Positions 1,911 through 35,152 of a stretch of DNA of 47,628 nt are shown in pieces. Source of the stretch: Nitrospirales bacterium. GTDB taxonomy: Bacteria > Nitrospirota > Nitrospiria > Nitrospirales > UBA8639. The notes under the pieces were generated by a model. It had not been told where the DNA came from and made no database searches. It saw nothing but the letters and a program-made list of their open reading frames with translations. Within the stretch, counting starts at the first letter, position 1. Each line of letters opens with the position of its first letter. A program made the position numbers and the translations under genes. The stretch is taken from the NCBI GenBank assembly GCA_029261255.1, contig JAJDBQ010000168.1:1-47628 (forward strand). Reading direction: 5' to 3'.

Positions 1911-2022
1911 AGCACTATGTGTGGCGTGATTTCCAGCTCATGGTATTTCAACGCATACGAAACACACGTTTTTTAATCCCTCCTCACAAACGGTCACAAG
2001 TTTTAGGAGCCCTTAACTCCAG

Positions 2023-4927: not shown

Positions 4928-4981
4928 AGGGAATATGACCTCTGTGCCCGCGGTGATCTCACTTCTATCCACCTTCCACTG

Positions 4982-6301: not shown

Positions 6302-6393
6302 AAAAATAAACAAGGAACTGACTCCTCACGCTAGGGGCGCCTATCTCCCTTACGCGTCATGCGTTCGCTTTTTCCCTTCTCACATTAAGATCG

Positions 6394-6422
6394 ACTCCTC
6401 ACTTTCCGACAGGTGAAGGAGT
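6394..6422. repeat. Short hairpin related to the GTGAGGAGT repeat family
   Basis: ACTCCTCAC (6394-6402) and GTGAAGGAGT (6413-6422) are complementary except for one bulged base, with a 10-base loop. The intergenic segment 6302-6499 also contains pyrimidine-rich CTCCTCACGC and CCCTTACGC stretches like the right arms of the larger repeats listed below. It sits between two paralogous pseudopilin genes inside the operon. No T-run follows, so it is not a typical terminator. Confidence 0.45.
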
Positions 6423-6499
6423 GGTATACCCGTCAAGAGTTGCCGATACCCAAGATATGCCCATAGCCACATGAGAAACATCATGGACAGTTTAGGCAA

Positions 6500-7327: not shown

Positions 7328-7342
7328 GAAAACGTCCAAGAC

Positions 7343-9911: not shown

Positions 9912-9918
9912 ACACACG

Positions 9919-12341: not shown

Positions 12342-12472
12342 AAAGGAGAAGTGAAAGGTGCGAAGAAATAACGATAGCAAGGTTGAGGGGAAGAATCCTC
12401 CAAAAATCCTTTGCTTACAGACTTCACGATTTCACTTCTTACTTTTCACTCCTGACTTCGCACTGTTCAAGA
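12342..12472. repeat. Dispersed repeat, intergenic copy between MshM and MshN homologues
   Basis: The 131-base gap has a purine-rich left arm (AGGAGAAGTGAAAGGTGCGAAG, in part 12345-12366) and a pyrimidine-rich right arm (12422-12472, with TTCACTTCTTAC, TTTTCACTCC and CTTCGCAC). The arms are complementary only in parts, for example GTGCGAAG with CTTCGCAC, but their heptamer-like wording matches the other copies. It replaces the usual tight junction seen elsewhere in this operon. Confidence 0.6.
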
Positions 12473-12473
12473 A

Positions 12474-13874
12474 ATGAGCATTATTGCCGACACATTGAAA
12501 CGTCTTCAGGCACAAGCTGATGATTCCCCACCCAAGCCAAAGGAGGACGTCGTTCAGCGTCCTGCTTTTAACAAAGGAGAAGGATCTGGACGGCATCGCA
12601 AGGATTCTCCGTTCACATTCTTGATGGTGTTGGTGGGGATGACCATGACACTCGGGAGTCTTGCTGTCGCAGCATTTTGGATCGGGGGGCATCTCGACTT
12701 CGGGCTGGGAAACACCACCCAAGCTCGCCTGAATGACCAACGCTCGCTCCCCAGGCCTCTCGATATTTCCGAGGAATCAATTTTCGATGAGCAAGCCTCA
12801 GAAACCAAGATTGCCGTCGCGGTGGAACCAACCCGGAATCACCTCACGACTGCGTCTCTTGGCAGTAATGACGACGAGCTCGCATCTGAACATTTCACAA
12901 GCAAGTCCGCACTTCCCTCATCGGCACCTCATAAAGAGACAGCCCCCTCTCTTTTACACATCGAACGGAACGATCCCTCATCAGGGAACACCACGGCAAC
13001 CATAATTGCTACTGAGCAAATTGCATTTTCTGATCCCATAGAACAATTGAGCGAGATTCAAGAAACGTCGACAGCTTTCTCCGCTTCGGATTCTGAGGAC
13101 CCTTCATCGATCGTATCCTCCCCTGAGCTCCACACGGAACTCATGCATGATCCAGACACAGACATTGTTGTCTTCAGCAACAATGGTGAAAGAGCCGCAT
13201 CAAATTTGGTTGCGTTGTTATCAGATGAAGAAATCATCGAGACAGAAGAGTTCGTCACAACAAGTAGCCGTGCAACTGATTCTGTCCCCGAAACAACTCT
13301 CGCAGCGCTGCAAGCGCAGCGCACGTCGATGAATGAAGCTGGCCAACCCATTGCACCATTACAACCGTCCCCGACCAACCGATTGAACCATGCGCAGGAG
13401 ATGATTCGAGCGGGAGAGTATGAAGACGCCGTGGCCCTCCTCTCTCCACTCTTTCATAACCCACCCGTAAAATGGCAACCCTGGTTTTGGATGGGGACCG
13501 CATTACTCGGTAAAGGCGATATGGAGGAGGCCGATCAATACTTCTTAAGCGGGCTCGCGAGAAATGACAAAATTCCACAGCTTTGGATCCAACGCGCCTT
13601 GGTGGCACAACAGCGCGGCGACTTTCAATTGGCCATCCATGAATTGAGACAAGCTGAATCTCTAGCAGCCAATCTTCCACACATCCATCTCAATATGGGT
13701 TATGCGTATGAACAGTTAGGGAACGATCAAATGGCGAATCAATATTATGGGAAATTCCTGAAACTCTCAGAAGATCAGCCTTCATTCTTCTCCACGAGAA
13801 AAAAACTGTTTGCACGTTTAACCCAACAAACTCCCACGAAGAAACTCACTCTCCCATCCCCTTCAGAACCCTGA
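12474..13874 (+). CDS. MshN-like membrane-anchored TPR protein
   Basis: The 466-residue protein has a short cytoplasmic N terminus (MSIIADTLKRLQAQAD), as in MshN/GspB-like proteins. A membrane span follows at about residues 43-66 (FLMVLVGMTMTLGSLAVAAF). Residues 75-300 form a long acidic, Ser/Thr-rich, probably disordered periplasmic region. At least three TPR units follow at about 300-450 (A-x-x-x-I-R-A-G-E-Y-E-D-A-V-A-L-L and W-x-x-x-G-x-A-L-L-G-K-G-D). It closes the MshI-J-K-L-M-N-like run and probably stabilises the pilus machine. There is no clear ribosome binding site, and a repeat element sits just upstream. Confidence 0.75.
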   Translation: MSIIADTLKRLQAQADDSPPKPKEDVVQRPAFNKGEGSGRHRKDSPFTFLMVLVGMTMTLGSLAVAAFWIGGHLDFGLGNTTQARLNDQRSLPRPLDISEESIFDEQASETKIAVAVEPTRNHLTTASLGSNDDELASEHFTSKSALPSSAPHKETAPSLLHIERNDPSSGNTTATIIATEQIAFSDPIEQLSEIQETSTAFSASDSEDPSSIVSSPELHTELMHDPDTDIVVFSNNGERAASNLVALLSDEEIIETEEFVTTSSRATDSVPETTLAALQAQRTSMNEAGQPIAPLQPSPTNRLNHAQEMIRAGEYEDAVALLSPLFHNPPVKWQPWFWMGTALLGKGDMEEADQYFLSGLARNDKIPQLWIQRALVAQQRGDFQLAIHELRQAESLAANLPHIHLNMGYAYEQLGNDQMANQYYGKFLKLSEDQPSFFSTRKKLFARLTQQTPTKKLTLPSPSEP

Positions 13875-14071: not shown

Positions 14072-15205
14072 ATGAAGGTCCAAACATTTTGTCTTGATAA
14101 TTCGAGCCCACCAATCACTCGTCCAGATTTTATCCAGGATCCTCAGAAATCTCTGGTGATTGTGTTCGGAGCCTCTAGCTTTCTGGAGTCTCCTGAACGC
14201 GTTCAAACCATCAGTCAAACATTTTCGGGCATTCCCATGATTGGCTGTTCAACGTCGGGGGAAGTGTTTGGGAATGAGATCAAAGACGACAGTTTGGTCG
14301 GAGGGGTGATGCAGTTTGATTGGACCACGGTTAAAACAGCAACCGTATCAATTCCCGATCCCACTCAATCATTTCATGTCGGCCAGCAAATAGCCAACGA
14401 CCTCCTGGGCCCAGACCTGAAGGGCGTCTTAGTGTTGTCCGATGGACTGCTCGTCAATGGCAGTGAACTCATCCGTGGGCTGAATGCGGTACTCCCAGAA
14501 TCAGTGGTCATTACCGGAGGGTTGGCCGGAGACGGAGATCGATTCAAACAGACGTGGGTCATTCAAAATAATGTTCCAACAGGAGGCATGGTGACAGCCG
14601 TCGGATTCTATGGTGACCGCATTCATCTGGGACATGCGTCTAAAGGAGGATGGGACTATTTGGGCCCTGAACGTCGAGTCACACGCTCTGATGGCAATGT
14701 GCTCTATGAGCTTGATGGCAAACCCGCCTTGGAGCTCTACAAGGAATACCTTGGGGACCGAGCCAGTGGACTTCCGGCCACCGCTCTACTGTTTCCCTTA
14801 GCCTTAAAACAAGATGGGCCAAGTGATGAATATCTGGTGCGAACCATCCTTGCTGTGAACGAAGCTGCCCAATCAATGACCTTTGCCGGAAACATCCCTC
14901 AAGATTCACTCGTACAACTGATGCGAGGAAATTTTGACCGGCTGATTAATGGAGCTTCTGAGGCAGCACTAGCCACCAAATCTGAGGACCCACAGAATAC
15001 GCTCGCCATCGCCATCTCCTGTGTCGGTCGACGCCTCGTGTTAGGCGAACGTGCCGAAGAAGAAGTCGAAGCCACGGTAGAGGTGTTCCCTCCTGGAACT
15101 CAACAAATAGGGTTTTACTCCTACGGCGAACTCTCCCCTTATGCCAATGGACGGTGTGAGCTCCATAACCAAACCATGACCCTCACGACAATCTCCGAAC
15201 AGTAG
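14072..15205 (+). CDS. FIST domain sensory protein
   Basis: The 377-residue soluble protein has an N-terminal FIST domain (about residues 25-215: LVIVFGASSF, GCSTSGEVFG, VLSDGLLVNG, GGLAGDG) and a FIST_C domain (about 220-355, including LLFPLAL and IGFYSYGELSP near the end). FIST domains are thought to bind small ligands such as amino acids and are found alone or in front of kinases and cyclases. It stops 6 bases before the hybrid kinase, so the two are probably co-translated and act as a split sensor and transmitter. TAAGGA before the ATG supports the start. Confidence 0.92.
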   Translation: MKVQTFCLDNSSPPITRPDFIQDPQKSLVIVFGASSFLESPERVQTISQTFSGIPMIGCSTSGEVFGNEIKDDSLVGGVMQFDWTTVKTATVSIPDPTQSFHVGQQIANDLLGPDLKGVLVLSDGLLVNGSELIRGLNAVLPESVVITGGLAGDGDRFKQTWVIQNNVPTGGMVTAVGFYGDRIHLGHASKGGWDYLGPERRVTRSDGNVLYELDGKPALELYKEYLGDRASGLPATALLFPLALKQDGPSDEYLVRTILAVNEAAQSMTFAGNIPQDSLVQLMRGNFDRLINGASEAALATKSEDPQNTLAIAISCVGRRLVLGERAEEEVEATVEVFPPGTQQIGFYSYGELSPYANGRCELHNQTMTLTTISEQ

Positions 15206-15211
15206 TTCTCC

Positions 15212-17473
15212 ATGCATCCTCTACTCAAACGACAACTCAAACGCATAGGGCAGGCAGATCTCACAGTTCCAGATTCCCCTGAGAATTGGAATAAATTGCT
15301 AGAGCGTGTCAGCAATGCGTATACCGAAGCGGATCAAGGACGTGAATTACTAGAACGGTCACTCGCCCTGTCATCCAAAGAGATGCAGCAACTCTATGAC
15401 AACCTTCGGTACACGAGCGAAACACGGCTGAAGAATGCGCAAGACCGAACTCGGGCGATCATCGATCATGCACTGGATGCGATTATCTCCGTCAATGAAG
15501 CTGGCATCATTGTGGATTGGAATCCACAAGCAGAAACATTATTTGGATGGACAAAAAAAGAAATCATAGGGCAACCTCTAACAGAAATGATCATCCCTCC
15601 AGAGTTTCGCGAGGGACATACTCACGGCTTTGAACGCTATTTAACAACTCGCCAAAGCACCATGCTCAACCAACGGCTTGAAGTCACAGCCCTCAATCGA
15701 AAGGGAGAAAAATTTCTGGCCGAGCTTACAGTCACCCCTATCACTGTTGAAGGAACAACGATCTTCAGTGCTTTCATACGCGATATCACCGAACAAAAAA
15801 ATACGGAACACACCTTACGGCAAGCCAAGGAAACAGCAGAACAAGCGGCAAAAGCTAAAAGCGAATTTTTAGCGACCATGAGTCATGAGATTCGTACACC
15901 CATGAATGGCATTATCGGAATGACCGGACTGTTGTTGGATACCAGTCTGTCTTCCCAACAACAGCAGTTTGCCGAAACCGTTCGCAGTTCGGGTGAAGCC
16001 TTGCTGACCATTATCAATGATATTCTTGATTTTTCAAAAATTGAAGCGGGAAAGTTGGATTTTGAAACCATTAATTTCAATCTTCGTGTGGCCATGGAAG
16101 ATACCTTGGACCTCTTAGCTGAAAAAGCTGGGAGTGCTCAAGTAGAATTGATTGGTTACATGGCCCCTTGCGTTCCCGCGCATCTAAAAGGGGACCCGGG
16201 GCGTTTTCGACAGGTTTTGCTGAATCTAGTTGGTAATGCCATCAAATTTACGAAAAAAGGGGATGTGACCCTACGTATTTCCTTGCTTGAGGAAACGAGA
16301 GACACCGCCACGATTCGTGTGGCCGTCACTGACACAGGCATCGGGGTCGACCCGTCGGTTCAAGCGCACCTCTTTCAACCCTTTCAACAAGCTGACAGTT
16401 CAACCACCCGTCAATTCGGTGGAACAGGGCTCGGCCTGGCTATTTCCAAAAAATTAGTCGAACAAATGGGTGGAAGCATCGGTGTCGAGAGTCAGGTGGG
16501 TCAAGGCAGCACCTTTTGGTTTACCTCACGCTACCTTAAACAATCCGAGTCCCCAAAGATTCTGCCAACAATGGACCTCGACGGATTGCGTCTCTGTTGT
16601 ATCGACGACCTCCCCATCAACCGAGAACTCGTAGAAGAATATGCCAAAGCCTGGGGCCTACATACGACGTCTGTCTCGACACCGACGGAAGGTCTCGAAG
16701 TGCTACAACGAGCCATGGACAAAGGAGAGCCGTTCCACATCGCCATTGTCGATATGGAAATGCCAGGTATAGATGGAGTAGCTTTGGCTCATGCCATCAA
16801 AAGCAATCCTCAATTGTCGGATACTCGCTTGATACTCTTATCGTCTATCGGGCAACAAGGGGAGACAAAGGAGGCCAAAGCTGCAGGTTTTTCAGGCTAT
16901 CTGACCAAACCTATTCGCCAGAATGCTCTGAAGCACACATTAAAGACCGTGATGGGCCTTGAGAGGGGGAACATGGATCAACTTGATACACCAGTCATCA
17001 CCCGTTTTGCGTCACTAGAATCAGCAGAAATAGTCGGCCATCGAGTCCTTGTCGTGGATGATCATCACGTCAATCAACAATTAGCCGTCATGATGATTGA
17101 GCGACTCGGACATCGAGTGCACGTCGCCGCCAATGGGCAGGAAGCCATCGACGCCTTGAAGACCATCCCCTATGACTTGATCTTTATGGATTGCCATATG
17201 CCTGTCATGGATGGCTACGAAGCCACGAAAATAATTCGTGAGGCGGAAATGGCAAAGCGCGAGGCGAAAGCAACAGATTCAACTGACCCCTTACGCCTCA
17301 CGCTTAACGGCACACTCCATGTGCCTATCGTGGCCATGACGGCTAACGTGATGCCTCAGGATCGTGAAAAATGCCTACAGGCCGGAATGGATGACTATTT
17401 AAGCAAACCCATTCGCCCTGACGGGCTTGTACGAATATTTGCTAAATGGCTATCTGCCCATACCCCAAAATGA
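15212..17473 (+). CDS. Hybrid histidine kinase PAS-HisKA-HATPase-REC-REC
   Basis: The 753-residue protein has no membrane span, so it is cytoplasmic. A helical N-terminal region (1-75) leads into one PAS domain (about 80-200, ending FIRDITEQK). HisKA follows with phospho-acceptor H225 in [13 protein letters not shown]. The HATPase_c domain has GNAIKFT, DTGIGV and [12 protein letters not shown]1 has D514 (VDMEMPG) and REC2 has D660 (MDCHMPVMDG), both with the conserved acidic pair and Lys. There is no HPt, unlike the two sister kinases. REC2 holds an insertion encoded by a dispersed repeat. The FIST protein just upstream is the likely signal input. Confidence 0.93.
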   Translation: MHPLLKRQLKRIGQADLTVPDSPENWNKLLERVSNAYTEADQGRELLERSLALSSKEMQQLYDNLRYTSETRLKNAQDRTRAIIDHALDAIISVNEAGIIVDWNPQAETLFGWTKKEIIGQPLTEMIIPPEFREGHTHGFERYLTTRQSTMLNQRLEVTALNRKGEKFLAELTVTPITVEGTTIFSAFIRDITEQKNTEHTLRQAKETAEQAAKAKSEFLATMSHEIRTPMNGIIGMTGLLLDTSLSSQQQQFAETVRSSGEALLTIINDILDFSKIEAGKLDFETINFNLRVAMEDTLDLLAEKAGSAQVELIGYMAPCVPAHLKGDPGRFRQVLLNLVGNAIKFTKKGDVTLRISLLEETRDTATIRVAVTDTGIGVDPSVQAHLFQPFQQADSSTTRQFGGTGLGLAISKKLVEQMGGSIGVESQVGQGSTFWFTSRYLKQSESPKILPTMDLDGLRLCCIDDLPINRELVEEYAKAWGLHTTSVSTPTEGLEVLQRAMDKGEPFHIAIVDMEMPGIDGVALAHAIKSNPQLSDTRLILLSSIGQQGETKEAKAAGFSGYLTKPIRQNALKHTLKTVMGLERGNMDQLDTPVITRFASLESAEIVGHRVLVVDDHHVNQQLAVMMIERLGHRVHVAANGQEAIDALKTIPYDLIFMDCHMPVMDGYEATKIIREAEMAKREAKATDSTDPLRLTLNGTLHVPIVAMTANVMPQDREKCLQAGMDDYLSKPIRPDGLVRIFAKWLSAHTPK
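17255..17305. repeat. Dispersed inverted repeat inside the REC2 coding sequence
   Basis: AAGCGCGAGGCGAAAG (17255-17270) and CTTACGCCTCACGCTT (17290-17305) are complementary at 14 of 16 positions around a 19-base loop. The reading frame stays open and encodes roughly MAKREAKATDSTDPLRLTLN between the receiver's I-R-E-A-E and V-P-I-V-A-M-T-A-N segments. The wording is the same as in the intergenic copies. Confidence 0.75.
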
Positions 17474-17857: not shown

Positions 17858-20800
17858 ATGCCCACTAGCTCCTCCTTCCAGCCCTTGACCTGGATGCTGA
17901 CCTGCACGGCTCTCGTCTTGCTGATGCAAGCCGGGTTTACGTGCCTAGAAACTGGTCTGGTCCGAGCTAAAAATAGCATCAACGTGGCCATCAAGAATGT
18001 TGTGGATTTTTGCATTGCCTCCATCATTTTTTGGATGCTTGGCTACGGCCTAATGTTTGGCACCACCGCGTTTGGGTTCCTTGGCACCTCGCAATTTCTG
18101 TTCGACGGGGATTCAAGTACACAGATGTGGACGTTCTTCCTGTTCCAACTCACATTTTGCGGAACCGCCACGACGATTATTTCTGGAGCAGTCGCGGAAC
18201 GTATGCGCTTTAGCGGCTATATTCTGGTTTCCTCGCTTATTAGCCTGGCCATCTACCCCATCATCGGTCATTGGATGTGGTCAGGCCATGCCGAAGGCCT
18301 TAAAACCGGTTGGTTGAACAACCTGGGATTTATTGACTTTGCGGGAGCCACGGTCGTCCATTCCACTGCTGGATGGGTGGCTTTAGCTGCGGCTTTGGTC
18401 ATTGGACCTCGTCTCGGGCGTTTTGGCGCAAACAGTGTGGCCATTCAAGGGCATAATCTGCCCCTTACTGCACTCGGATTATTCTTATTATGGGTGGGAT
18501 GGCTGGGGTTCAATGGTGGCAGCGCGATTCCCGGCACTCACAATCTTCCTCTCATCTTAGTGAATACCATGCTGGCAAGTGCATCCGGCGGAATCACCGC
18601 GTTGACGTATGCATGGAGATTAAAGAAGAGGCCAGATGCGAGCTCAGTGATCAATGGCATGTTAGCAGGACTGGTCGCGATGACGGCTTCTGCACCCTAT
18701 ATGACCCCCACCACAGCACTAATCGTCGGAGGAATCGCAGGAATCCTGTGCGTCCTGGCCACGAGTCTCTTAGAACGATGGCACATAGATGATGTCGTCG
18801 GAGCCATCCCTGTGCATGCTTGCGCAGGGGTGTGGGGGACCCTCGCAGTAGCCTTACTTGGGAATATGGAACTATGGGGAACCGGGTACGACCGTCTCAC
18901 GCAATTTGGCATTCAACTCAGCGGGGTCTTGGCCTGCTTTGGATGGGCCTTCGGTGTCAGTGCCATGATTTTGACGTATCTCAACAAGATATATCCTCTT
19001 AGGGTCACCGAGGATGAAGAACGCTTGGGATTGAATATGGCGGAACATGGGACCAGCACGGCCCAGCTTGATCTGCTTGGACAAATGGAAACGCACCGGG
19101 CCAAGGGAGACTTCACTCGGTCAGTGGAAGCGGAGCCCCATACAGAAGTTGGACAAATCGCGACCGAATACAATCGTGTTTTAGACCGAGTGAATGCGGG
19201 AGCTGAGCAACGGGAACAGGCCATTCGAGCCCTTCGTGAGAGTCGAGAAGAGATTCGCCTCATTATAGATCATGCTCTCGATGCCATTGTCACCATCGAT
19301 CAGGAAGGCATCATCACCGACTGGAATCCACAAGCCACCTTAATATTCGGATGGCCCAAGTCTGAAATAATGGGAAAGAGCTTTGGAGTCACGTTGCTTC
19401 CTTCAAGTCCTTGCAATGAAGAAGAAAGCCTGTTCAAACATTTTCTAGAGACGAAGCAACAACATATCGTGAATAAACGCCTGGAAATTAGAGGACTCCA
19501 CCGACACCATCAAGAGTTTCTCATGGAAATCACCATAGTGCCCCTGTTCAAGCAGAATTCGTATTCTTTTTGTGCGTTCATCAGAGATATTACGGAACAG
19601 AAACAGATCGAAGCAGCGCTTGGCCAAGAAACAGCCCTGATGCGACTCATCCAGCAGGTCGCTATTGCGGCCAATGAAGCACAATCCGTCAATGATGCCT
19701 TTCAATCCAGCTTAGATCGCATCTGCGCATTTACCACATGGCCAGTCGCTCATGTCTACTTCCGTGATGATGAACACACCTCACAACTCTCACCTTCACA
19801 TTTATGGCATTTGGACAATGACGATGAATTCCAAACCTTTAAGGCCCTCACGGAACAAACGGTTTTTTCCGCAGGAGTAGGACTTCCTGGACGAGTACTC
19901 GCACAAGGCCGAGCAGCATGGATTCCTGACATCACCCAGGACCTGAACTTTCCAAGAGCACGGATGGCGGGCGAACTGGGGATCCGAGGTGGATTTGCCT
20001 TTCCCGTTCTCATTGGGAATACCGTCATGGGTGTATTGGAATTCTTTTCTCGTTCAATCGAATCTCCCAATGCTCGTTTGCTAGAAGTGATGGAAATCGT
20101 AGGGACGCAATTGGGCCGTGTGCTTGAACGCAAACGAGGAGAATTGGCGCGAGAGGAAAGCGATGCACGGATCAGAGGAATTGTGGAAACGGCAGCCGAC
20201 GCCATCATTACCATTAATGAAACAGGGATCATCCAATCGTATAACAGCGCAGCCGAACACGTGTTTGGCTATTCAGCGCAAGAAGCCATCGACCAGAATG
20301 TGTCTTTTCTCATGCCTTCCCCCCACCAAGAAGAACATGATGGATACCTCCGACGATATCTCGATGGACAGTCTTCCACCATTCTTGGGAAAAGTCGCGA
20401 ATTAGTTGGCAAACGAAAAAATGGCAGAACCTTTCCCATGGAACTCGCCGTGAGCGAAACAAAGGTGGGTGCTCGCCCTACGTTCACCGGCATTATTCGA
20501 GATATCAGTGATCGCAAACAACAGGAACAAGAACTTCGAGAAGCCAAAGAGCATGCAGAATCTGCGGCCATCGCGAAAAGTCAGTTTCTCGCGACCATGA
20601 GCCATGAAATCCGCACGCCGATGAATGGCGTGATTGGGATGACCGGGCTCCTTTTGGAAACAGACCTCTCCACTCAACAACAGCAGTTTGCCGAAACGGT
20701 TCGGTCATCTGGAGAGACGTTGCTAAAGATCATTAACGATATTTTAGATTTCTCGAAGATTGAAGCCGGAAAGTTAGAATTCGAAATGATCCCATTTGAT

Positions 20801-22594
20801 CTTCGAACCACCTTAGAAGAATCGTTAGAGTTGTTGGCGGAAGCGGCAGGCAAAAAAAACCTCGAATTAGTTGGTCTCGTCAACGCCAACGTTCCTACAG
20901 CATTGCAAGGGGATCCTGGACGCTTACGCCAGATATTCATGAATCTCACCGGGAACGCAATAAAGTTTACGACTCAAGGGGAAATTATAGTCAAGATCTC
21001 GTCGGTCGAAGAAACGCCAGATTCGGTGACCATACGTGTGGACATTCATGATACAGGAGAAGGTATCCCCTCTGACATTCTACCAAAACTTTTCCGACCG
21101 TTTTCCCAAGCTGACAGTTCGACGACTCGACGTTATGGCGGGACCGGACTCGGACTCGCTATCTGCAAACAACTTGTCCAACAAATGAGCGGGGAAATTG
21201 GCGTTGAAAATCGAATAGAAGGTGGGAGCACGTTTTGGTTTTCCGCCCATTTTGAGAAACAACTACCAATGGACACCGGTCTCTCTCAAAGACCTATCAC
21301 CCTACAAAACCTCCGAGTCTGTGCAGTGGATGATCATGTCACCAATCGACAGTTATTGGAGCAATATTTCCACTACTGGAATATAGATGGCACATTAGTA
21401 GAAGACCCCAAGGAATGCTTAATCCTACTTCAGCAACAGGCCAAGCAGGGGAGGCCATTCGATTTGGCTATCTTAGATATGGAAATGCCAGAGATGGATG
21501 GATTTACGTTAGCCACACACATTAAATCAGACAGCATTCTTCAAAACACGCGGTTGGTCTTGCTGACTTCCCTAGGAAGACGAGGAGATGCCACAGCAGC
21601 CAAACAATCAGGATTTTCTGGGTATTTGACCAAACCGATTAGAAAAGCACAACTTCAAGCCTGCATGGAAACCGTCATGGGTTTACCCCTCTCTGATACT
21701 CATTCCGCACCTCAACCATTAGTCACGGCTCACTTCCTAAAAGACCTCCACCGCCAACAAGCCATTCGCATTTTGGTGGTAGATGACCACCAAGTGAATC
21801 AGCAACTAGGCGTCTTGATGGTTGAACGATTAGGCTTTCGCGCAGATGTGGCAGGCAACGGACATGAAGCCCTCGAAGCCTACTCTCGCATTCCGTATGA
21901 CCTGATTTTAATGGATTGCCAAATGCCAGAAATGGATGGCTATGAAGCCACAAAAAATATTCGTGAGGCGGAAAGCGTCAGGCGTGAAGCGCAAGAAAAA
22001 ATCTCGCCTGACGCTTCACCCCTAACGTCTCGACATGTGCCTATTATCGCTATGACTGCGAATGCGATGCAGGGAGATCGTGAAAAATGTCTCCAAGCAG
22101 GAATGGACGAATATCTCAGCAAGCCCATTCGGCCTGAGGAATTATCCAATATCTTGGCTCAGTGGTTACCGAAGTCCGATCCCCTGGCACTTCCGATCGC
22201 TGAGAACATCGAAACATCCTCCTCGTCTCCAACACCCGATTCTCCTACATCAGATGTTATCAACCATCAGACTCTGGACGAATTGGAAATTCTTGGAGGA
22301 CGGGAATTTCTCCAAACCATGATTCAGAGATTTGTCGAAGATTCCCTAGAATGTGTCACCCTCATTGAACAGGCTTTAGACAAACACGACCTAGCACAAA
22401 TTCAAGAATCCGCCCATGGGCTTAAAGGCATCTCGCGAAATATGGGAGCCACCGCTCTCGCCCGAGTGGCCGTGGACCTTGAGACTGCCTGCCAGGGAGA
22501 AGCAACAACCATGACGCCTTCATTTCGCACGAAGATTCAAGACACATTTCAAGCAACCCGTCAGGAACTAGAAGCCATGCTCAACGATCCCTAA
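17858..22594 (+). CDS. Ammonium transporter-fused hybrid histidine kinase (Amt-PAS-GAF-PAS-HK-REC-REC-HPt)
   Basis: The 1578-residue protein starts with a complete Amt/Mep/Rh domain of about 11 membrane spans (residues 10-385). The pore residues of E. coli AmtB are retained: D160, H168 and H320 (twin histidines), F100 and F218 (gate), W215 and S222. After LRVTEDEERLGLNMAEHG comes a helical linker, then PAS (about 465-590), GAF (593-760) and PAS (767-886). HisKA has H916, and an intact HATPase domain follows. REC1 has D1207, REC2 has D1353, and the HPt domain has H1520 in AHGLKG. An Amt-kinase fusion, Ks-Amt5 of Kuenenia, has been described as an ammonium sensor. The job here is therefore probably to sense ammonium and start a phosphorelay. 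The pore residues mean transport cannot be excluded. Confidence 0.94.
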   Translation: MPTSSSFQPLTWMLTCTALVLLMQAGFTCLETGLVRAKNSINVAIKNVVDFCIASIIFWMLGYGLMFGTTAFGFLGTSQFLFDGDSSTQMWTFFLFQLTFCGTATTIISGAVAERMRFSGYILVSSLISLAIYPIIGHWMWSGHAEGLKTGWLNNLGFIDFAGATVVHSTAGWVALAAALVIGPRLGRFGANSVAIQGHNLPLTALGLFLLWVGWLGFNGGSAIPGTHNLPLILVNTMLASASGGITALTYAWRLKKRPDASSVINGMLAGLVAMTASAPYMTPTTALIVGGIAGILCVLATSLLERWHIDDVVGAIPVHACAGVWGTLAVALLGNMELWGTGYDRLTQFGIQLSGVLACFGWAFGVSAMILTYLNKIYPLRVTEDEERLGLNMAEHGTSTAQLDLLGQMETHRAKGDFTRSVEAEPHTEVGQIATEYNRVLDRVNAGAEQREQAIRALRESREEIRLIIDHALDAIVTIDQEGIITDWNPQATLIFGWPKSEIMGKSFGVTLLPSSPCNEEESLFKHFLETKQQHIVNKRLEIRGLHRHHQEFLMEITIVPLFKQNSYSFCAFIRDITEQKQIEAALGQETALMRLIQQVAIAANEAQSVNDAFQSSLDRICAFTTWPVAHVYFRDDEHTSQLSPSHLWHLDNDDEFQTFKALTEQTVFSAGVGLPGRVLAQGRAAWIPDITQDLNFPRARMAGELGIRGGFAFPVLIGNTVMGVLEFFSRSIESPNARLLEVMEIVGTQLGRVLERKRGELAREESDARIRGIVETAADAIITINETGIIQSYNSAAEHVFGYSAQEAIDQNVSFLMPSPHQEEHDGYLRRYLDGQSSTILGKSRELVGKRKNGRTFPMELAVSETKVGARPTFTGIIRDISDRKQQEQELREAKEHAESAAIAKSQFLATMSHEIRTPMNGVIGMTGLLLETDLSTQQQQFAETVRSSGETLLKIINDILDFSKIEAGKLEFEMIPFDLRTTLEESLELLAEAAGKKNLELVGLVNANVPTALQGDPGRLRQIFMNLTGNAIKFTTQGEIIVKISSVEETPDSVTIRVDIHDTGEGIPSDILPKLFRPFSQADSSTTRRYGGTGLGLAICKQLVQQMSGEIGVENRIEGGSTFWFSAHFEKQLPMDTGLSQRPITLQNLRVCAVDDHVTNRQLLEQYFHYWNIDGTLVEDPKECLILLQQQAKQGRPFDLAILDMEMPEMDGFTLATHIKSDSILQNTRLVLLTSLGRRGDATAAKQSGFSGYLTKPIRKAQLQACMETVMGLPLSDTHSAPQPLVTAHFLKDLHRQQAIRILVVDDHQVNQQLGVLMVERLGFRADVAGNGHEALEAYSRIPYDLILMDCQMPEMDGYEATKNIREAESVRREAQEKISPDASPLTSRHVPIIAMTANAMQGDREKCLQAGMDEYLSKPIRPEELSNILAQWLPKSDPLALPIAENIETSSSSPTPDSPTSDVINHQTLDELEILGGREFLQTMIQRFVEDSLECVTLIEQALDKHDLAQIQESAHGLKGISRNMGATALARVAVDLETACQGEATTMTPSFRTKIQDTFQATRQELEAMLNDP
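21973..22016. repeat. Dispersed inverted repeat inside REC2 of the Amt-kinase
   Basis: AAGCGTCAGGCG (21973-21984) and CGCCTGACGCTT (22005-22016) form a perfect 12-bp inverted repeat with a 20-base loop. More repeat-like words follow (TCACCCCTAACG). It encodes an in-frame insertion after I-R-E-A-E, at the same receiver position as the copies in the two sister kinases. Confidence 0.8.
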
Positions 22595-22846
22595 CGCTTC
22601 TTGCTCTCGCTCTTTCCACAAGCACCCATTACTTGCTCCCAACCTACCGTTTCCCCTCTTCCGAGCAGCCATTATTGGCATTCCGCATTCCTCTTCATTA
22701 AGTCTCAATTTCGGATAACCGACATAAAGATTAGGGAAAATAAGGCCCTTTCTCTAAGTTACTGTCCCCCTCGATTGTCGTCGCCGGCAAAAGGAAGTGG
22801 TCCAATTAATCAAGAAGAATTCGGTAGTGTGCACTCGGAGGATTTC
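22595..22846. other. Leader region of the TonB receptor gene
   Basis: The 252-base region is open in one frame up to the receptor gene, but the translation looks random. No cobalamin, TPP or other riboswitch core could be picked out by eye. A good ribosome binding site, CGGAGG at 22836-22841, marks the true start at 22847. Confidence 0.5.
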
Positions 22847-24859
22847 ATGACAGGCTTTTCTACAACACAAAATTTCCCGCACCAAATAGTTGCTCCCCTT
22901 AAAAAAATGCGAATGGCAACGCTGCTTCTTATCATCATGACCGGAACAGCCTTCGGTGAGATATCTGATCTCTCTTCGAACACTGACCTGACTGAGCTCA
23001 GCTTGGAAGAACTTATGTCTGTCGAAGTCACGTCAGTATCCAAGAAAAAGCAAAAATTATCGAAATCAGCAGCGGCCATTTTTGTCATCACACAGGAAGA
23101 TATTCGCCGATCAGGCGTGACGAGTATTCCAGAAGCTCTTCGCATGGCTCCAGGCATCCAAGTCGCAAGAGGGAGTAATAATCAATGGAACATCAGTTCC
23201 AGAGGATTCAATGAACGATTCACCAATAAATTGCTAGTCCTTATCGACGGTCGAACTGTCTATAACCCCTTATTTGCTGGAGTGGCATGGGAAACGCAAG
23301 ACACGATGCTGGAAGACATTGATCGTATCGAAGTGATCCGTGGCCCTGGCGGGGCACTGTGGGGTGTGAATGCCGTGAATGGCGTCATCAATATCATCAC
23401 GAAGCACGCTCAGGATACGCAAGGGCTTTTAGTCAGCGGGGTGACCGGAACCGAGGAAGGCATTGTGTCAGTCCGACAAGGGGGAAGTCATGGCTCAGAT
23501 TTCCAGTATCGATTGTTTGCCAAGTATTTCAATCGAGATACGAGTTTTAACGCAGTGGGCGCCCATGATGACACACGAATGTTCCGCAGTGGATTTCGCA
23601 CTGATTGGCAACCGGCTACACAAGATCGTGTGATGGTTCAAGGGGAGCTCTATACTGGCAATGGCGGACAACAAAGTACGGTCGCCACGACCACAACATT
23701 TCCCTATGCATTTACTCTTGGGAACGAGGACCTAGAAATGTCAGGAGGACATTTCCTCACACGTTGGGAACATACCTGGAATTCAGGTTCCGATATGGCG
23801 CTACAATTTTTTTACGATCGTTATGAGCGAAGAGAAAACACGGTGAAAGCGACCATTGATACATTCGACGTGGACTTTCAACATCGATTTGCCTTCCTTA
23901 GCCACCAAGAGATCCTCTGGGGATTGGAGTATCGCTATTGGATGGATGACTTGCAAAATACTCCTGGTACAGCAGTTTTCCCTGATTCACAATCCTTCAA
24001 TTTAGTAAGTGGCTTTCTCCAAGACGAAATCACAGTCATTCCCGACACCCTCATCGTCACGATTGGCACGAAACTCTCACACAACCATTTTACCGGATTT
24101 GAATATCAGCCCAGCGGACGTTTTCTCTGGACGCCAATGGATGGTCACAGTCTGTGGGGAGCCATTTCTCGCGCCGTCCGTGTTCCGTCTCGCTTAGAAG
24201 ACAACATCCGTCTCACTCTTCCAGCCAATAGCACCACGCCCTTCCCGACTTTAGTCAGAGGAAATCAGAGCTTCAAATCCGAAGAGCTCTTAGCATATGA
24301 AGTAGGCTACCGACTCAATACGTTTGAGTGGATCACATTTGATATCACAGGGTTCTATAATCAATACGACAATATTCGTGGCACCAGAGTCGTCAGCCTC
24401 GCCCCTCCTACTGGCACGCTCGAAAATAATTTGGAAGTGGACAGCCTGGGAGTAGAACTGGGCAGTGATGTTCAACTTCAAGATTGGTGGCGAATCCGTG
24501 GCGCCTATACGTATATCAACATGTGGGTGGAAGGCCCAATTAATACCGCCCTCAGTACAACCGGCAGAGGCACACCACACCATCAAGGGTCCATTCGTTC
24601 CTTGATGACACTCCCCTATCAAGTGGAATTCGATTCATGGCTGCGCATTTCGGATAACCTCCCAGCTCCAAACATTGCAGGCTATCTCGAGCTGGACCTT
24701 CGCCTTGGGTGGAAGCCATGGCCCAATCTTGACGTATCACTCGTGGGACAAAACCTCTTGGATAATCATCATCCAGAAGCGGCTCCATCTCTGTTCTTAG
24801 CCACACAGCCAACCGAAGTTCAACGCAGTGTCTATGGAAAACTCACGTGGAGCTATTAA
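22847..24859 (+). CDS. TonB-dependent outer-membrane receptor
   Basis: The 670-residue protein starts at the ATG preceded by CGGAGG. An in-frame ATG at 22907 also sits before the hydrophobic signal segment (MATLLLIIMTGTAFG). The mature N terminus, LSLEELMSVEVTSVSKK, is typical of a receptor subgroup often found next to sensory proteins. The plug domain follows (IFVITQEDIRRSG, SRGFNERF, VLIDGRTVYNPL, RIEVIRGPGGALWG, NAVNGVINIITK), then a beta barrel ending in an aromatic-rich strand (YGKLTWSY). The substrate cannot be named. Its position ahead of a YfiR protein and a periplasmic-domain kinase suggests that its loading state may be part of a signalling chain. Confidence 0.92.
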   Translation: MTGFSTTQNFPHQIVAPLKKMRMATLLLIIMTGTAFGEISDLSSNTDLTELSLEELMSVEVTSVSKKKQKLSKSAAAIFVITQEDIRRSGVTSIPEALRMAPGIQVARGSNNQWNISSRGFNERFTNKLLVLIDGRTVYNPLFAGVAWETQDTMLEDIDRIEVIRGPGGALWGVNAVNGVINIITKHAQDTQGLLVSGVTGTEEGIVSVRQGGSHGSDFQYRLFAKYFNRDTSFNAVGAHDDTRMFRSGFRTDWQPATQDRVMVQGELYTGNGGQQSTVATTTTFPYAFTLGNEDLEMSGGHFLTRWEHTWNSGSDMALQFFYDRYERRENTVKATIDTFDVDFQHRFAFLSHQEILWGLEYRYWMDDLQNTPGTAVFPDSQSFNLVSGFLQDEITVIPDTLIVTIGTKLSHNHFTGFEYQPSGRFLWTPMDGHSLWGAISRAVRVPSRLEDNIRLTLPANSTTPFPTLVRGNQSFKSEELLAYEVGYRLNTFEWITFDITGFYNQYDNIRGTRVVSLAPPTGTLENNLEVDSLGVELGSDVQLQDWWRIRGAYTYINMWVEGPINTALSTTGRGTPHHQGSIRSLMTLPYQVEFDSWLRISDNLPAPNIAGYLELDLRLGWKPWPNLDVSLVGQNLLDNHHPEAAPSLFLATQPTEVQRSVYGKLTWSY

Positions 24860-24951
24860 TCCATTCACGAACTGCTAGTGAGGACCTGGAACCACCACAC
24901 AATGCCCCTCCAGCTCTTGGTGGCTAAGCCATTTTGCTTGGACGCTTTTCC

Positions 24952-25512
24952 ATGATGCACAGACCCCATCATGCATTTGGCCTGTGCCTCGCTATAGTTA
25001 TCGTCTTAAGTAGTCTGATCTGGCATCCAGAACACAGCCAGGCCGATGGACCAAAAGAGTATCAAATCAAAGTCGCATTCCTCTATCACTTTGCCACATT
25101 CGTGGATTGGCCATCCTCCACATATAAGGACACCGATGGACACCTCCGAATCTGCATTATGGGGAAAGATCCATTTGGAGAAAGTCTCGATGCCACGTTA
25201 CGCACAAAAAAAATTGGGAGCCATCCACTTGAAATATACCGCAACCCTAGCACAACGACATTGAAACATTGTCATATGCTGTATCTTGCCGCAGCACAAT
25301 CATCGCAACTCAGAACCTACCGCCAACAATACGGTAGCGCAAACGTCTTGACGGTAGGAGAAAACGATATCTTTATCCAGCACGGTGGCATGATCAAATT
25401 CTTCCTAGATGATCAAAAAGTGCGGTTTGCCATCAACCCGGACGCGATCAACAAGACAAACCTAAAAGTTAGTTCAAAATTGCTACGTCTGGCCAAAATT
25501 ATCTCCCCATAA
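24952..25512 (+). CDS. YfiR family (DUF4154) periplasmic protein
   Basis: About 186 residues from the ATG at 24952; a TTG at 24934 is in frame but less likely. The signal peptide ([14 protein letters not shown]) would be cut after SQA. The mature part has the family signature: [19 protein letters not shown] at its start, [12 protein letters not shown], then VLTVGE and [15 protein letters not shown] at the end. In Pseudomonas, YfiR holds the CHASE8-HAMP cyclase YfiN inactive from the periplasm. Here the next gene has the matching periplasmic module but a kinase output, and only 5 bases separate the two. Repression of that kinase is a strong inference. Confidence 0.9.
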
Positions 25513-25517
25513 ATACG

Positions 25518-28500
25518 ATGCCATTTTCCTGGACACCAAAGATCGTTCAACGAATGCCTCTCAAGAGTAAGCTCCTCTTGATCCTTCTATTCACATCTGG
25601 CCTGAGCCTGCTATTCGCCTGTACCGTCTTAGTTGTGAACGACTTAGTGGAATTTAGGCAATCGCTCGTCAATGAGCTCATGGATCAAGCCGGCTTGGTG
25701 GGCGAAAACAGCTCTGCTGCGCTGGTATTTCATGATCAAGAAACCGCGAAAGAGATTGTCTCGGCCTTCCAGCATCAATCGAACATTCTTCAAGCCATGC
25801 TCCTGACTCCCCAAGGAGACATACTCGCTCAATACCAACCTGGACCGCTCCCCATATTCAACAACACAACGAATCAAATGTTGACGACTGTATCGTGGGA
25901 ATCTGTAGAAATTTCCCGCCCTATCATCTTCAACGGTGAGAAAGTCGGCGTCCTGTATGTCCAATCAAATTTACAGGCAATGTATGAGCACCTCGAGCAT
26001 CTTCTTGCGATTATGATCTCTGCCATGATCGTCGCAAGTCTGTTAGCCCTATTGATTTCTTCGAGACTCCAAGAAGTCATACTGAGTCCATTGGTTAATC
26101 TCACAAACGTGGCCACTCGCATTTCTCACAGTCAAGATTATTCCTTACGTGCCGATGGCCATCGGCAGGATGAAATCGGGACCTTGATTGATGGATTCAA
26201 TGCCATGCTGCAAGAAATTCAAAATCGAGATACAGAACTGGAACAACATCGCTCCCATTTATCAGACATGGTCACCGAGCGTACAAACGAACTTATGAAC
26301 ACTAACGTCCTGCTGCATCAGGAAATCAGTGATCGAGAACGTGATGGCCAGGAAATTAGCAATATGGCCACAAACCTTCAGAAAAAGAATGATGAACTAG
26401 CCGTATCGCGCGACGCAGCCCTCCAAGCCGCTAAGGCAAAAGCTGAGTTCTTGGCCACCATGAGCCATGAAATTCGTACCCCAATGAACGGTGTGATTGG
26501 CATGACCGAATTATTATTGGATACCCATCTGACGGCCGAACAGCAGTATTTAGGCAAAACCGTACGGACGTCAGCTGAAGCCCTCTTGACACTATTGAAC
26601 GACATTCTTGATTTCTCAAAAATTGAGTCGGGTAAACTCGAACTGGAGTCCATTGATTTCGATGTGAACACCACATTGGAAGATACGCTTGATTTACTCG
26701 CCGAACGGGCGTCTCACAAACATGTGGAATTAACAGGCGTGGTATTTCCTGATGTGCCCAAAAGACTGAAAGGTGATCCCGGTCGAATTCGCCAAATTCT
26801 CTTGAATTTAATAGGCAACGCCATCAAATTCACTCAACAAGGCGAAGTCAGTGTTCAGATCTTGTTCATGGGATCTTCTGAGTCACATGTCGAACTGCAA
26901 GTGCATGTCTGGGACACCGGAATCGGCATCGCTTCTGATGTCAAAGACAAACTGTTTCATGCCTTTACCCAAGCCGATAGTTCCACGACCAGAGAATATG
27001 GTGGCACAGGCTTAGGATTAGCCATTTGCAAGCAACTGGTGGAGCTGATGGATGGCAAAATAGACGTAGAAAGCCAACGTGGAGCATGGAGTTTATTTTG
27101 GTTTTCGGTGACATTAGAAAAATCCGCTGCAACGACACGACCAGAATGGCTGCCTCGACCTGATCTTCATGGTCTCCGAGTCTTATGCGTTGATCAAAAT
27201 CCGACGAACTTATTCTTATTAGAGTCTTATGCCAAATCCTGGGGCATGGTCGTCCAGACAACGGCGAACACGCACGACTGTCTCCCCATTCTCCAAAACG
27301 CCATGGCCTCCGGCCATCCATTTGATGTCGCTATTGTAGATCGCGGTATATCTAAGCTCGACGGCCTCAAGCTAGGGCAACTGATCAAACAACACCCGGA
27401 TGTGGCTCAGACCAAACTTCTGCTCCTCACCTCAATTGGCCAACGTGGAGAAGCTGCAACAGCCCATGAGGCTGGATTTTCCGGCTATCTCACCAAGCCC
27501 CTGCATAAAGTACAACTGCATGATGGGTTGGCCACAGTCATGGGGTACTGTTGGACCGAAAACCCAGAACAGACACGGCCATTAGTGACACGACATACGC
27601 TGAAAGAAACACAACGGCGATCTCGAGATAAAATCCTGGTGGCTGACGACCATGCCATCAACCAGCAACTCATTGTCTTACTCCTTGAGCGTCTCGGGTA
27701 TGGATCTGACGTCGTGAGTACAGGACATGATGCCGTCCAAGCTGTAGCGACCGAGTCGTATGCCCTCGTGCTCATGGACTGCCAGATGCCAGAAATGGAC
27801 GGATTCTCAGCCACTCGAAAGATTCGAGAAGCGGAAGGTGTAAGACATGAGGCGTTAGGCGAAAAAGACGAAACACACAAAACACAATCACCTGATGCTT
27901 TACCCCTTACGCCTTACGACGAGCTGCGAATTCCAATTGTAGCTTTGACTGCCAATGCCATGCCTGGCGACAGAGAAAAATGCTTAGCCACAGGGATGGA
28001 CGACTACCTCGCAAAACCTATCCGCCCAGAAGAATTAGCTCGAGTACTGGAACGGTGGCTTCCAGAATATCCTGAGACCACGGACCAGGATTTACTCCTT
28101 GGCAAGGGTCATCATATCGAAAGGGCAGAAGAGCAGAACACGAACAGCTTGAATGATCTTGGCAACCACGTAATTGAAACACCTTCCCCCATCGATCCAT
28201 CCAGATTCCAAGAATGGCAAGAGCTTGGAGGAACAGAATTTGTCAATCGCATGGTTGAACAATTTGTCACAGATGCCACCAATTGTGCTCAGGCCCTCAC
28301 ACATGCACTCGAGCATCACGACGACGATGGATTGGCAGAAGCCGCTCACGGATTGAAAGGCATTTGCGCCAATATTGGCGCGACGCAACTCCATCACATC
28401 GCGATCAACATTGAGCAAGCCCTTCACGCAGGGCAAAAAGTAGACTCCAAGCAAACAACGGAATCACTGGAAATTGCCCTTGCTCAAATCACCAATTACC

Positions 28501-28529
28501 TTGCGACTATCCAAACACCTCAGGAATAA
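25518..28529 (+). CDS. Membrane hybrid histidine kinase, CHASE8-like-HAMP-HK-REC-REC-HPt
   Basis: The 1003-residue protein has a membrane span at about 18-40, a periplasmic CHASE8-like domain (about 42-155: [10 protein letters not shown] and G-D-I-L-A-Q-Y) and a second span at about 158-182. HAMP (to about 235) and a coiled coil lead to HisKA with H317 and an intact HATPase domain. REC1 looks damaged: the acidic pair is DQ instead of DD, and the acceptor D608 sits in [10 protein letters not shown] where MP is expected. REC2 is intact (D754, [10 protein letters not shown]) and carries the repeat-derived insertion. The HPt domain has H944 in AHGLKG. It is coupled to the YfiR gene. Its core is a close paralogue of the Amt and FIST-associated kinases. 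Confidence 0.93.
27837..27919. repeat. Dispersed repeat inside REC2 of the CHASE8-like kinase
   Basis: The left arm has GTGTAAGACATGAGGCG and GTTAGGCG words (27839-27861). The right arm has CACCTGATGC, TACCCCTTACGCC and TTACG words (27889-27918). Complementarity is partial, as in the intergenic copies, and the frame remains open. It gives the longest of the three receiver insertions, about 30 residues between I-R-E-A-E and I-P-I-V-A-L-T-A-N. Confidence 0.65.
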
Positions 28530-28948: not shown

Positions 28949-30052
28949 ATGATCTCACAACAACAATGCCAAAACGCCACGATCCTCATCGTTGACGATC
29001 AAATGACCAACATTCTGCTCTTAGAGAGTATCTTACAAAACGCTGGCTATACCAACATTCATTCAACTCAAGACCCCACACAAGTCGTCACACTTGTCAA
29101 AGAGTTGAATCCCGATCTCATCTGCTTGGATATCCGCATGCCAGAAATCAACGGGTTTCAGGTCATGGGTCAGTTAAAAATTATTCAGAAAGATGCCTAT
29201 CTTCCCATTTTAGTGTTGACCTCCGAAGAGGATCGCGAAACTCGTTTGCGTGCGCTGGAATCCGGAGCCAAAGATTTTCTGCATAAACCGTTTGACAAAA
29301 TTGAAGTGCTCATGCGCATTCGCAACCTACTGGAAGCCAGCCTCTTAAATCGAACGATCTTGTTACAAAAAGATACGCTGGAAGAAACCGTTCGAGTGCG
29401 GACACAAGAACTCAAGGAAACACAATTGGAGGTCGTCCATCGACTCGCCCAAGCAGCGGAACATCGTGACAATGAGACTGGAAGCCATATCGTTCGAATG
29501 AGCCACTATGCTGTCGTCATCGGACGTGCCTGCGGGATGAACGAAGAAGAATGCGACGTGCTCTTCCATGCAACACCCATGCATGACGTGGGCAAACTCG
29601 GCATACCAGACAAGATCCTCCTCAAACCTGGCAAGTTGGACGCGGAAGAATGGGAAGTCATGAAACAGCACACCGTGATTGGCGGCCAATTATTGTCGAA
29701 TAGCCAATCCCCTGTCTTGCAAATGGGAGAAACCATTGCTCTCACGCATCATGAGCGATGGGACGGGTCAGGGTATCCCAACCGCTTAGCTGCTGAAGAT
29801 ATTCCACTCGTTGGCCGAATCTGCGCCATCGCTGATGTCTTTGACGCCCTCTCCTCCAAACGCTGTTACAAAGATCCCTGGCCGCTCGAAAAAGTACTGC
29901 AGGAACTTCGCTCACTGTCTGGAATTCAATTTGATCCACGATTACTCGAAATGTTTGATGAACTACTCCCGATCATCCTGGAAATTCAACGATCACACAC
30001 CGATGTCCCCGTACCCAAATTCAATCTGACCGAAGTCAGCTACTTAACCTAA
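28949..30052 (+). CDS. Response regulator with HD-GYP c-di-GMP phosphodiesterase domain
   Basis: The 367-residue cytoplasmic protein has an N-terminal REC domain (about 10-125, acceptor D61 in CLDIRMPEING, KPF near its end) and a helical linker. An intact HD-GYP domain follows, with H212-D213 in MHDVGKLGIPD, HHERWDGSG and the G275-Y276-P277 triplet. HD-GYP proteins hydrolyse c-di-GMP using two or three metal ions. It is probably controlled by one of the adjacent kinases, since the Amt and CHASE8-like kinases end in HPt domains that could hand phosphate to a free receiver. The ATG has no strong ribosome binding site. Confidence 0.94.
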   Translation: MISQQQCQNATILIVDDQMTNILLLESILQNAGYTNIHSTQDPTQVVTLVKELNPDLICLDIRMPEINGFQVMGQLKIIQKDAYLPILVLTSEEDRETRLRALESGAKDFLHKPFDKIEVLMRIRNLLEASLLNRTILLQKDTLEETVRVRTQELKETQLEVVHRLAQAAEHRDNETGSHIVRMSHYAVVIGRACGMNEEECDVLFHATPMHDVGKLGIPDKILLKPGKLDAEEWEVMKQHTVIGGQLLSNSQSPVLQMGETIALTHHERWDGSGYPNRLAAEDIPLVGRICAIADVFDALSSKRCYKDPWPLEKVLQELRSLSGIQFDPRLLEMFDELLPIILEIQRSHTDVPVPKFNLTEVSYLT

Positions 30053-30218
30053 TCCGACTCCCCTCACCTTCTTCCATTTCCTCTTCCCTCTGCACGACAT
30101 GTCCATGCCACATTCTGATCTTTCTTGAACCCGCGTAATGCGCTAGACTGAACTGCTCCCTCCCTTCCATATAGACTGTCATCCAGTCATTCATATCTCA
30201 ACCAGGTAGGTGGACACG

Positions 30219-35135: not shown

Positions 35136-35152
35136 CTAACAAGGGGGACCGT

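Follow-up and report, generated by a model that had tools for sequence, protein, structure and literature searches.

The window considered here is the whole of contig JAJDBQ010000168.1 (assembly GCA_029261255.1), 47,628 nucleotides from the draft genome of a Nitrospirales bacterium (4.36 Mb, 88% complete, 251 contigs). It contains a gene whose product joins an ammonium transporter domain (Amt) to a hybrid histidine kinase, hereafter the Amt kinase. The Pfam matches in the protein follow in the order Ammonium_transp, PAS, GAF, PAS, HisKA, HATPase_c, two receivers and HPt. The gene and its parts are as follows.

17858..22594, plus strand: Amt-receptor hybrid histidine kinase gene, ATG start, open reading frame of 1578 amino acids
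17891..19057, plus strand: Amt domain, residues 12–400, Pfam Ammonium_transp, E 5e-119
19061..19195, plus strand: HAMP-like linker, about residues 402–446 (bounds set by us), 19.3 bits to PF00672, cut-off 25
19280..19597, plus strand: PAS1, residues 475–580 (matched as PAS_9), none of the three FixL heme-pocket residues
19682..20128, plus strand: GAF_2 domain, residues 609–757 (Pfam)
20168..20506, plus strand: PAS2, residues 771–883, FixL-like, with His and both Arg of the heme pocket conserved as in FixL
20573..20770, plus strand: HisKA, residues 906–971, phospho-acceptor H916
20909..21250, plus strand: HATPase_c, residues 1018–1131, N-box at 1029, G1 at 1065, G2 at 1094
21314..21682, plus strand: receiver 1, about residues 1153–1275 (bounds set by us), D1207
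21770..22156, plus strand: receiver 2, residues 1305–1433 (the better of two Response_reg matches), D1353
22319..22564, plus strand: HPt, residues 1488–1569, H1520

The first-pass annotation of this DNA had described a single frame of 1578 codons leading from an Amt domain to a full phosphorelay, with the pore residues D160, H168, H320, F100, F218 and S222. The reading-frame call and the Pfam matches bear this out, and a residue check agrees on all six positions and adds W141. The catalytic and phospho-acceptor motifs are likewise in place, namely H916, the N, G1 and G2 boxes, D1207, D1353, the KP motifs of both receivers and H1520. Two features had been overlooked, the HAMP-like segment in the gap between Amt and PAS1 and the FixL-like character of PAS2. 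The reading frame, the domains, the conserved residues, the family membership and the synteny are observed directly. That the gene encodes an ammonium-responsive receptor kinase is, in our assessment, likely, and this grade applies to that statement alone.

Fused Amt proteins in other genomes

A scan of genome contigs with the patterns [IL]GLNM[AT]EH and EPHTEVGQ yielded 76 loci, of which 65 have a complete frame, closed on either side. Since both patterns sit in the linker, its conservation in these loci is partly a result of selection. A search of 395 genomes of the same phylum with the Amt domain only is free of this bias; at E up to 1e-60, a match was found in 134 genomes. The four best matches (58–100% identity) lie in frames of 1115–1581 amino acids, and the remaining ones, among the matches listed, have at most 50% identity and frames of up to 614 amino acids.

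The domain order was then compared, as the first-pass annotation had proposed, across 79 fused proteins classified with local profiles: the window, L035–L037 and all scan loci except L070 (75 of 76). Additional PAS, GAF, REC (receiver) or HPt parts are common in this set, so that the PAS-GAF-PAS inputs, the receivers and the HPt do not set the protein apart, as had been thought. Its exact architecture is found in six of the 79 fusions (the window, L064–L067 and L069), and L068 agrees up to the end of its contig. According to the record titles, fused Amts span several phyla and include cultured Allochromatium, Thiobaca, Halomonas, Vibrio, Shewanella, Cerasicoccus and Blastopirellula; hence tests of the family need not be limited to anammox bacteria.

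The first-pass annotation had named an assembly join of two genes as a finding that would refute its reading. Such a join, or a chimera, is extremely improbable and in practice refuted. The source genome is indeed a draft in 251 contigs at 88% completeness, and two Phycisphaeraceae relatives hold the Amt with its linker and the kinase as separate frames. However, both the architecture and the flanks are alike in independently assembled genomes, and isolate genomes, e.g. that of Blastopirellula marina, also carry fused Amts. Because six relatives share the architecture (one of them up to the contig end), the frame is not a join.

In the Phycisphaeraceae loci, L090 and L106, the Amt and linker stop at 573 and 577 amino acids, respectively (counted from stop to stop), and an overlapping kinase-like frame follows downstream, which in L106 is HisKA-HATPase-REC. 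This is either a split receptor–kinase pair or a frameshift in both metagenome-assembled genomes (MAGs). Locus L070 (383–3427) has window-like parts, which a stop codon in frame divides into a PAS1 frame (383–1354) and a GAF-PAS-kinase frame (1358–3427). In L072, a frame of 1115 amino acids (5843–9187) is composed of Amt-PAS-GAF-GAF-PAS and ends without a kinase; the Amt rows of L035 and L072 are identical. Two Amt kinases per MAG, one of the window type and one with the order Amt-GAF-HK-REC-REC (HK, histidine kinase), are seen in records titled Nitrospirota (L064/L077, L065/L082, L068/L079 and L070/L073). The MAG labels of some loci, e.g. L112 and L100, may reflect binning errors.

Sensing and transport by the Amt domain

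The domain belongs to PF00909, being full-length with D160, the twin histidines, the Phe gate and the W/S filter. Its closest PDB sequences are 8qj3 and 8qpf, followed by 6eu6 (Ks-Amt5); the best folds are 8qj3 and 8qj4 ('Receptor Sd-Amt1' in the OFF and ON states) and Ks-Amt5. The likeness to Ks-Amt5 proposed in the first-pass annotation holds in that both are Amt-kinase fusions, but the nearest solved relative is Sd-Amt1, at 51% identity over the Amt domain against 44% for Ks-Amt5.

We aligned 71 full-length fused rows and 69 stand-alone rows, the latter drawn mainly from genomes of the window's phylum together with the best-scoring or nearest matches. The fused rows exclude the partial Amts L076, L077, L082, L100, L132 and L133, the locus L070, which has no Amt frame, and the duplicates L003, L034 and L140; the short-tailed L090 and L106 were tallied separately. 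The Phe-gate position 103 is L in three of the 71 fused rows. Loop 5 has 18 residues in the window, 20 in Ks-Amt5 and Sd-Amt1, 15 in AmtB and Af-Amt1, and 18–20 in 31 of the 69 stand-alone rows.

In a careful tree of 62 rows, 33 fused rows including the window and Sd-Amt1 form one clade (99/99), eight Ks-type rows another (100/100), and eight ordinary Amts a third (100/100), while 13 stand-alone Amts with Q24 and D50 form a fourth, weaker clade (91/68). The joint clade of fused and Ks-type rows, expected if the two types had a single origin, has support of 92/82, its alternatives are not rejected by the approximately unbiased test (p-AU 0.31 and 0.12), and in a larger quick tree its support is 16. 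A quick tree of 146 rows recovers the fused clade with a starred support value of 98, and four stand-alone Amts of Granulosicoccaceae are nested within it. In these loci (L078, L081, L084 and L086), the stand-alone Amt of the fused clade adjoins the fused one and seems to have arisen by duplication of the Amt domain.

The retained twin histidines had been taken as a hint of transport. They are present in 71/71 fused and in 69/69 stand-alone rows, as well as in Ks-Amt5, which is reported to keep the pore residues intact yet not to translocate efficiently (PMC5764959). Hence they do not discriminate, and we reject them as evidence of transport.

The same source describes in Ks-Amt5 a deep site of Q24, E31, N47, D50, T51, T109 and T112 that holds two ammonium ions, and calls this cation site absent from assimilatory Amts (PMC5764959). 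The window has the equivalents Q24, E31, N47, D50 and T106, that is, five of the seven residues are identical, T51 being replaced by F and T112 by S. In the fused rows Q24, E31, D50 and T109 are invariant (71/71), and N47 is found in 69/71, with R in the other two. Q24 and D50 also occur together in 31 of the 69 stand-alone rows, 28 of which have E31 as well; in the other three, position 31 is C. Four of these 31 are the Granulosicoccaceae Amts adjoining a fusion, and 27 are from the window's phylum (26 distinct ones, since L018 and L047 represent the same gene). The latter are L018 and L038–L063, and the fetched stretch contains a PII gene for 24 of the 27 loci, or 23 of the 26 distinct ones. 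The deep site as a mark of sensors only is thus rejected. Since its residues characterise a wider Amt subfamily, they decide neither sensing nor loss of transport, and their use as a sensor mark is in question.

Another comparison concerns the side chains F27, Y30 and F34, said to plug the Ks-Amt5 pore (PMC5764959). Only F27 is kept in the window, positions 30 and 34 both being L; in the fused rows F27 is present in 71/71, L30 in 67/71 and L34 in 48/71.

The genomic context is of another kind. A PII gene lies near 25 of 31 ordinary Amt loci and near none of the fusions (0/76 scan loci, 0/3 for L035–L037, and none in the window), with loci of differing lengths. The source genome has two further Amts with a PII gene between them. 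As these can serve uptake, it need not depend on the Amt kinase. For comparison, N. marina is said to encode three Amts (PMC8115632).

Loss of transport by the Amt domain of the window is marginally favoured, and transport is probably not the main role of the Amt kinase. A transceptor, in which ammonium does pass through the Amt domain and the kinase monitors either the transport cycle or the occupancy of the pore, is rather unlikely. Every pore residue is intact, two of the three plug positions are smaller here (L30 and L34), and the cation-site residues are found in PII-linked, presumably transporting Amts, all of which would suit a conducting domain. On the other hand, Ks-Amt5 combines an intact pore with inefficient translocation (PMC5764959), none of the examined fusions has a PII gene beside it, and two further Amts, accompanied by a PII gene, are encoded elsewhere in the genome.

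The HAMP-like linker and the FixL-like PAS domain

The region of residues 380–465 is conserved over 73 linkers as GLN.aEHgAsTe..dLl..M...r..gdFs..V.vEPHTEVGQIA.eYNrVl, in part by selection. When the linkers are scanned individually against Pfam, 56 of the 73 match HAMP (PF00672) at E up to 1, the best at 1.3e-5; the next families match nine linkers each. A HAMP domain consists of a helix, a connector of about 13 residues and a second helix. The AlphaFold2 model of residues 1–473 (monomer, mean pLDDT 90.8) fits this topology, with a helix at 402–416, a connector at 417–429 and a helix at 430–472.

The profile of the fused linkers matches Sd-Amt1 (8qj3 and 8qpf) at E 7e-14, with GLN..E ... VGxI..YN in common. 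Its matches to the Ks-type loci (20/20) are weak, with E from 2.5e-7 to 4.8e-6 in the set of 20 sequences, and 17 to 22 bits. Inspected by eye, without a Pfam scan, all 20 Ks-type linkers share GLN..E and continue as a heptad helix or coiled coil into the H-box. Ks-Amt5 has no HAMP domain according to the paper on it (PMC5764959), and the possibility that one had been overlooked was rejected, the by-eye likeness being confined to the GLN..E part. We read the window linker, from its sequence and model, as a HAMP-derived relay and as a real difference from Ks-Amt5.

The PAS2 domain aligns with the heme-PAS of FixL without gaps at 112 bits, and the next family, EcDOS/DosP, scores 51 bits. The heme-pocket residues, which we take to be H200, R206 and R220 in FixL numbering, are present in PAS2 of the window and of L064–L069, that is, in all seven orthologues. 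Elsewhere the triad is not found: 53 of the 79 fusions have PAS, with 67 matches in total, and seven matches show the full set, all of them PAS2 of these orthologues. The His, alone or with other residues, occurs in 17, including the seven. PAS1 of the window has none of the three residues, and in the PAS of the neighbouring kinase the second Arg is missing.

The second, cytoplasmic input suggested in the first-pass annotation is supported in this sharper form. On sequence grounds PAS2 rather probably binds heme; since it is FixL-like and keeps the pocket residues in all seven orthologues, a gas, with O2 as the most likely one, is the probable second signal. It could also be imagined that PAS2, responding to O2 or nitric oxide (NO), receives the main stimulus and the Amt is a membrane anchor or weak modulator. 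The FixL likeness, the conservation of the triad and the NosP-like gene next door point that way. This is nevertheless improbable, given that the triad is confined to seven orthologues (7/67 PAS matches in the 53/79 fusions with PAS), and the twin histidines with Q24, E31, D50 and T109 are found in 71/71 full-length Amt rows.

Gene neighbourhood, output and known systems

Three neighbouring features on the same strand bear on the input and output of the Amt kinase.

14072..17473, plus strand: FIST (NosP-like) protein and PAS-HK-REC-REC kinase, possible co-input
24934..28529, plus strand: YfiR-like protein, and hybrid kinase with CHASE8, HAMP and HPt that shares 53% core identity with the Amt kinase
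28949..30052, plus strand: RpfG-like REC-HD-GYP with HDVGK and GSGYP motifs, proposed output partner

The FIST gene and the adjoining kinase, which shares 57% core identity with the Amt kinase, are likely an NO-sensing pair. They are present upstream in L064, L066 and L067 and absent there in L068 and L069. Downstream (22601–28529) are a TonB-dependent receptor, the YfiR-like gene and the CHASE8-HAMP hybrid kinase, conserved in six related loci (L064–L067, L069 and L070); here a YfiR-type periplasmic control apparently acts on a kinase rather than on a cyclase.

The RpfG-like gene lies 6.4 kb 3' of the Amt kinase in the window. Its orthologue, 86–92% identical, is present in 5/5 related genomes searched, a set without the genome of L069. 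In G396, G397 and G398 it is on the same contig and strand as the Amt kinase, 6.2–6.4 kb behind it, and in G395 and G399 on a different contig. In other branches the connection is closer. Sixteen of the 79 fusions terminate in GGDEF-EAL, and a REC-HD_5 gene is immediately downstream in eight of the nine non-truncated Amt-PAS-HK-REC-REC-HPt proteins, with L094 as the exception; seven of the eight are labelled Planctomycetota, and L099 is labelled 'bacterium'. Given the GGDEF-EAL parts of some fusions, the RpfG-type gene that follows others and the RpfG downstream here, an output through cyclic di-GMP (c-di-GMP), shared by the neighbouring kinases, is suggested; we regard it as an even call.

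Somewhat less probable is that the HPt signals to an unlinked regulator, e.g. a transcription factor of nitrogen genes, and not to c-di-GMP. The TonB receptor, the YfiR-like gene and a hybrid kinase separate RpfG from the Amt kinase, and in other loci a lone REC (L089, L091, L107, L112, L117 and L123) or REC-SpoIIE (L136) follows the fusion, in agreement with this alternative. What argues for c-di-GMP is that other family branches have GGDEF-EAL or an adjacent RpfG as their output, and that RpfG is retained in 5/5 genomes searched.

Genes of an MSHA-type pilus (T2SSE with MshEN, T2SSF, a secretin, an ExeA-like AAA protein and TPR) occupy 1227–13874. The pilus ATPase (2023–3726, MshEN) was considered as a c-di-GMP effector, which its sequence makes doubtful: by eye, Arg/Gln of the MshEN motif (as given in PMC5013675) are Q/A in repeat 1 and M/G in repeat 2, and two regular expressions for the motif did not match the protein. 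A DUF3391-HD_5 protein at 36681–38042 is a second HD-GYP-like one, in which an expression for HDxGK found no match. At 30210–35893 are a multi-PAS kinase of 1641 amino acids that starts with GTG and, behind it, a REC protein. A scan of the window against Rfam gave no matches, and a search of the source genome for ammonia monooxygenase gave none either, although the positive control was unmatched too.

From these data we infer the following function of the whole protein. It would act in the membrane as a receptor for ammonium rather than chiefly as an uptake channel. The ligand is predicted to enter the selectivity filter (W141/S222) of a presumed Amt trimer and to reach the deep cation site (Q24, E31, N47, D50 and T106). 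The resulting movement may be relayed through the C-terminal tail of the Amt (GLNMAEHG) and the HAMP-like helix-connector-helix into PAS1-GAF-PAS2, where PAS2, of the FixL type and probably heme-binding, would contribute a gas signal, most likely O2. The combined state would control autophosphorylation at H916, with a putative phosphorelay from H916 through D1207/D1353 to H1520 and on to a response regulator, most likely the downstream RpfG-type REC-HD-GYP, the output being breakdown of c-di-GMP. The complete scheme, a coincidence detector of ammonium and oxygen in which a trimeric Amt, a HAMP-like module and a heme-PAS-gated relay lower c-di-GMP via HD-GYP and share this output with the NosP (NO) kinase, is unlikely to be right in every part. 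If it is, a nitrifier-type bacterium uses a single set of closely related kinase cores to sense NH4+, O2 and NO.

Several points weigh against the receptor scheme. The deep-site residues are present in PII-linked stand-alone Amts and hence are no proof of a sensor; at that, T51 and T112 of the Ks-Amt5 site are F and S here. As only F27 of the plug is kept, with L30 and L34 in place of the other residues, the pore may be more open. The window linker taken alone scores 19.3 bits against the PF00672 cut-off of 25, 17 of the 73 linkers have no HAMP match, and the way in which a trimeric receptor drives dimeric HAMP, PAS and HK parts is structurally unexplained. Finally, 6 kb separate RpfG from the Amt kinase, and the hybrid kinase in between may be its true partner; in the genome of L064 the RpfG orthologue is on another contig than the Amt kinase.

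Amt receptors as a kind are already known from Ks-Amt5 and Sd-Amt1, the two fused ones with a solved structure in the fold search. A version with the order PAS-GAF-FixL-PAS-HK-REC-REC-HPt and a HAMP-like linker did not appear in the literature searched, among the matches listed; nor do these include a paper on Sd-Amt1 or on a Nitrospirota Amt kinase, the search covering CC-licensed literature. The family of fused Amts is broad and little studied, and probably reports ammonium, perhaps together with oxygen. The HAMP-like linker, lying under a fold that is trimeric in known members, makes the coupling of a threefold receptor to a twofold kinase testable. In the main text of a 2022 census of c-di-GMP stimuli, a search for the terms 'ammonium', 'ammonia' and 'Amt' returned none (PMC8846402), in contrast to the GGDEF-EAL ends of 16/79 fusions.

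Several known systems share single features with the window. The ammonia-sensing kinase GrtK is said not to be an Amt (PMC12918730). A GlnK-regulated assimilatory Amt is marked by a PII gene (glnK) beside amt, and there is none in the window. In FixL, whose PAS binds heme and responds to O2, the likeness is that of the ungapped PAS2, which here is placed beneath an Amt receptor, flanked by GAF on one side and the hybrid kinase on the other. NosP-NahK-NarR, composed of FIST, a hybrid kinase and a c-di-GMP enzyme (PMC8846402), is paralleled by the FIST gene of the window adjoining a related hybrid kinase, but the receptor is different, and the partner in the window would be HD-GYP.

Ks-Amt5 of Kuenenia stuttgartiensis (6eu6), an ammonium sensor kinase of the kind marked by autophosphorylation that depends on ammonium, is, like the window protein, an Amt fused to a HisKA kinase, with intact pore residues and Q24, E31, N47, D50 and T109. 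It differs in belonging to a separate Amt clade, in a linker that looks like a plain coiled coil and in the absence of PAS, GAF, REC and HPt; its Y30, F34, T51 and T112 are replaced in the window. Sd-Amt1 of Shewanella denitrificans (8qj3, 8qj4 and 8qpf, the last titled 'Ammonium Transporter Amt1 from Shewanella denitrificans') can be read as an Amt-diguanylate cyclase, because 8qpf matches GGDEF at 439–646, where the window has PAS-GAF-PAS-HK-REC-REC-HPt instead. The two belong to the same Amt clade and have related linkers.

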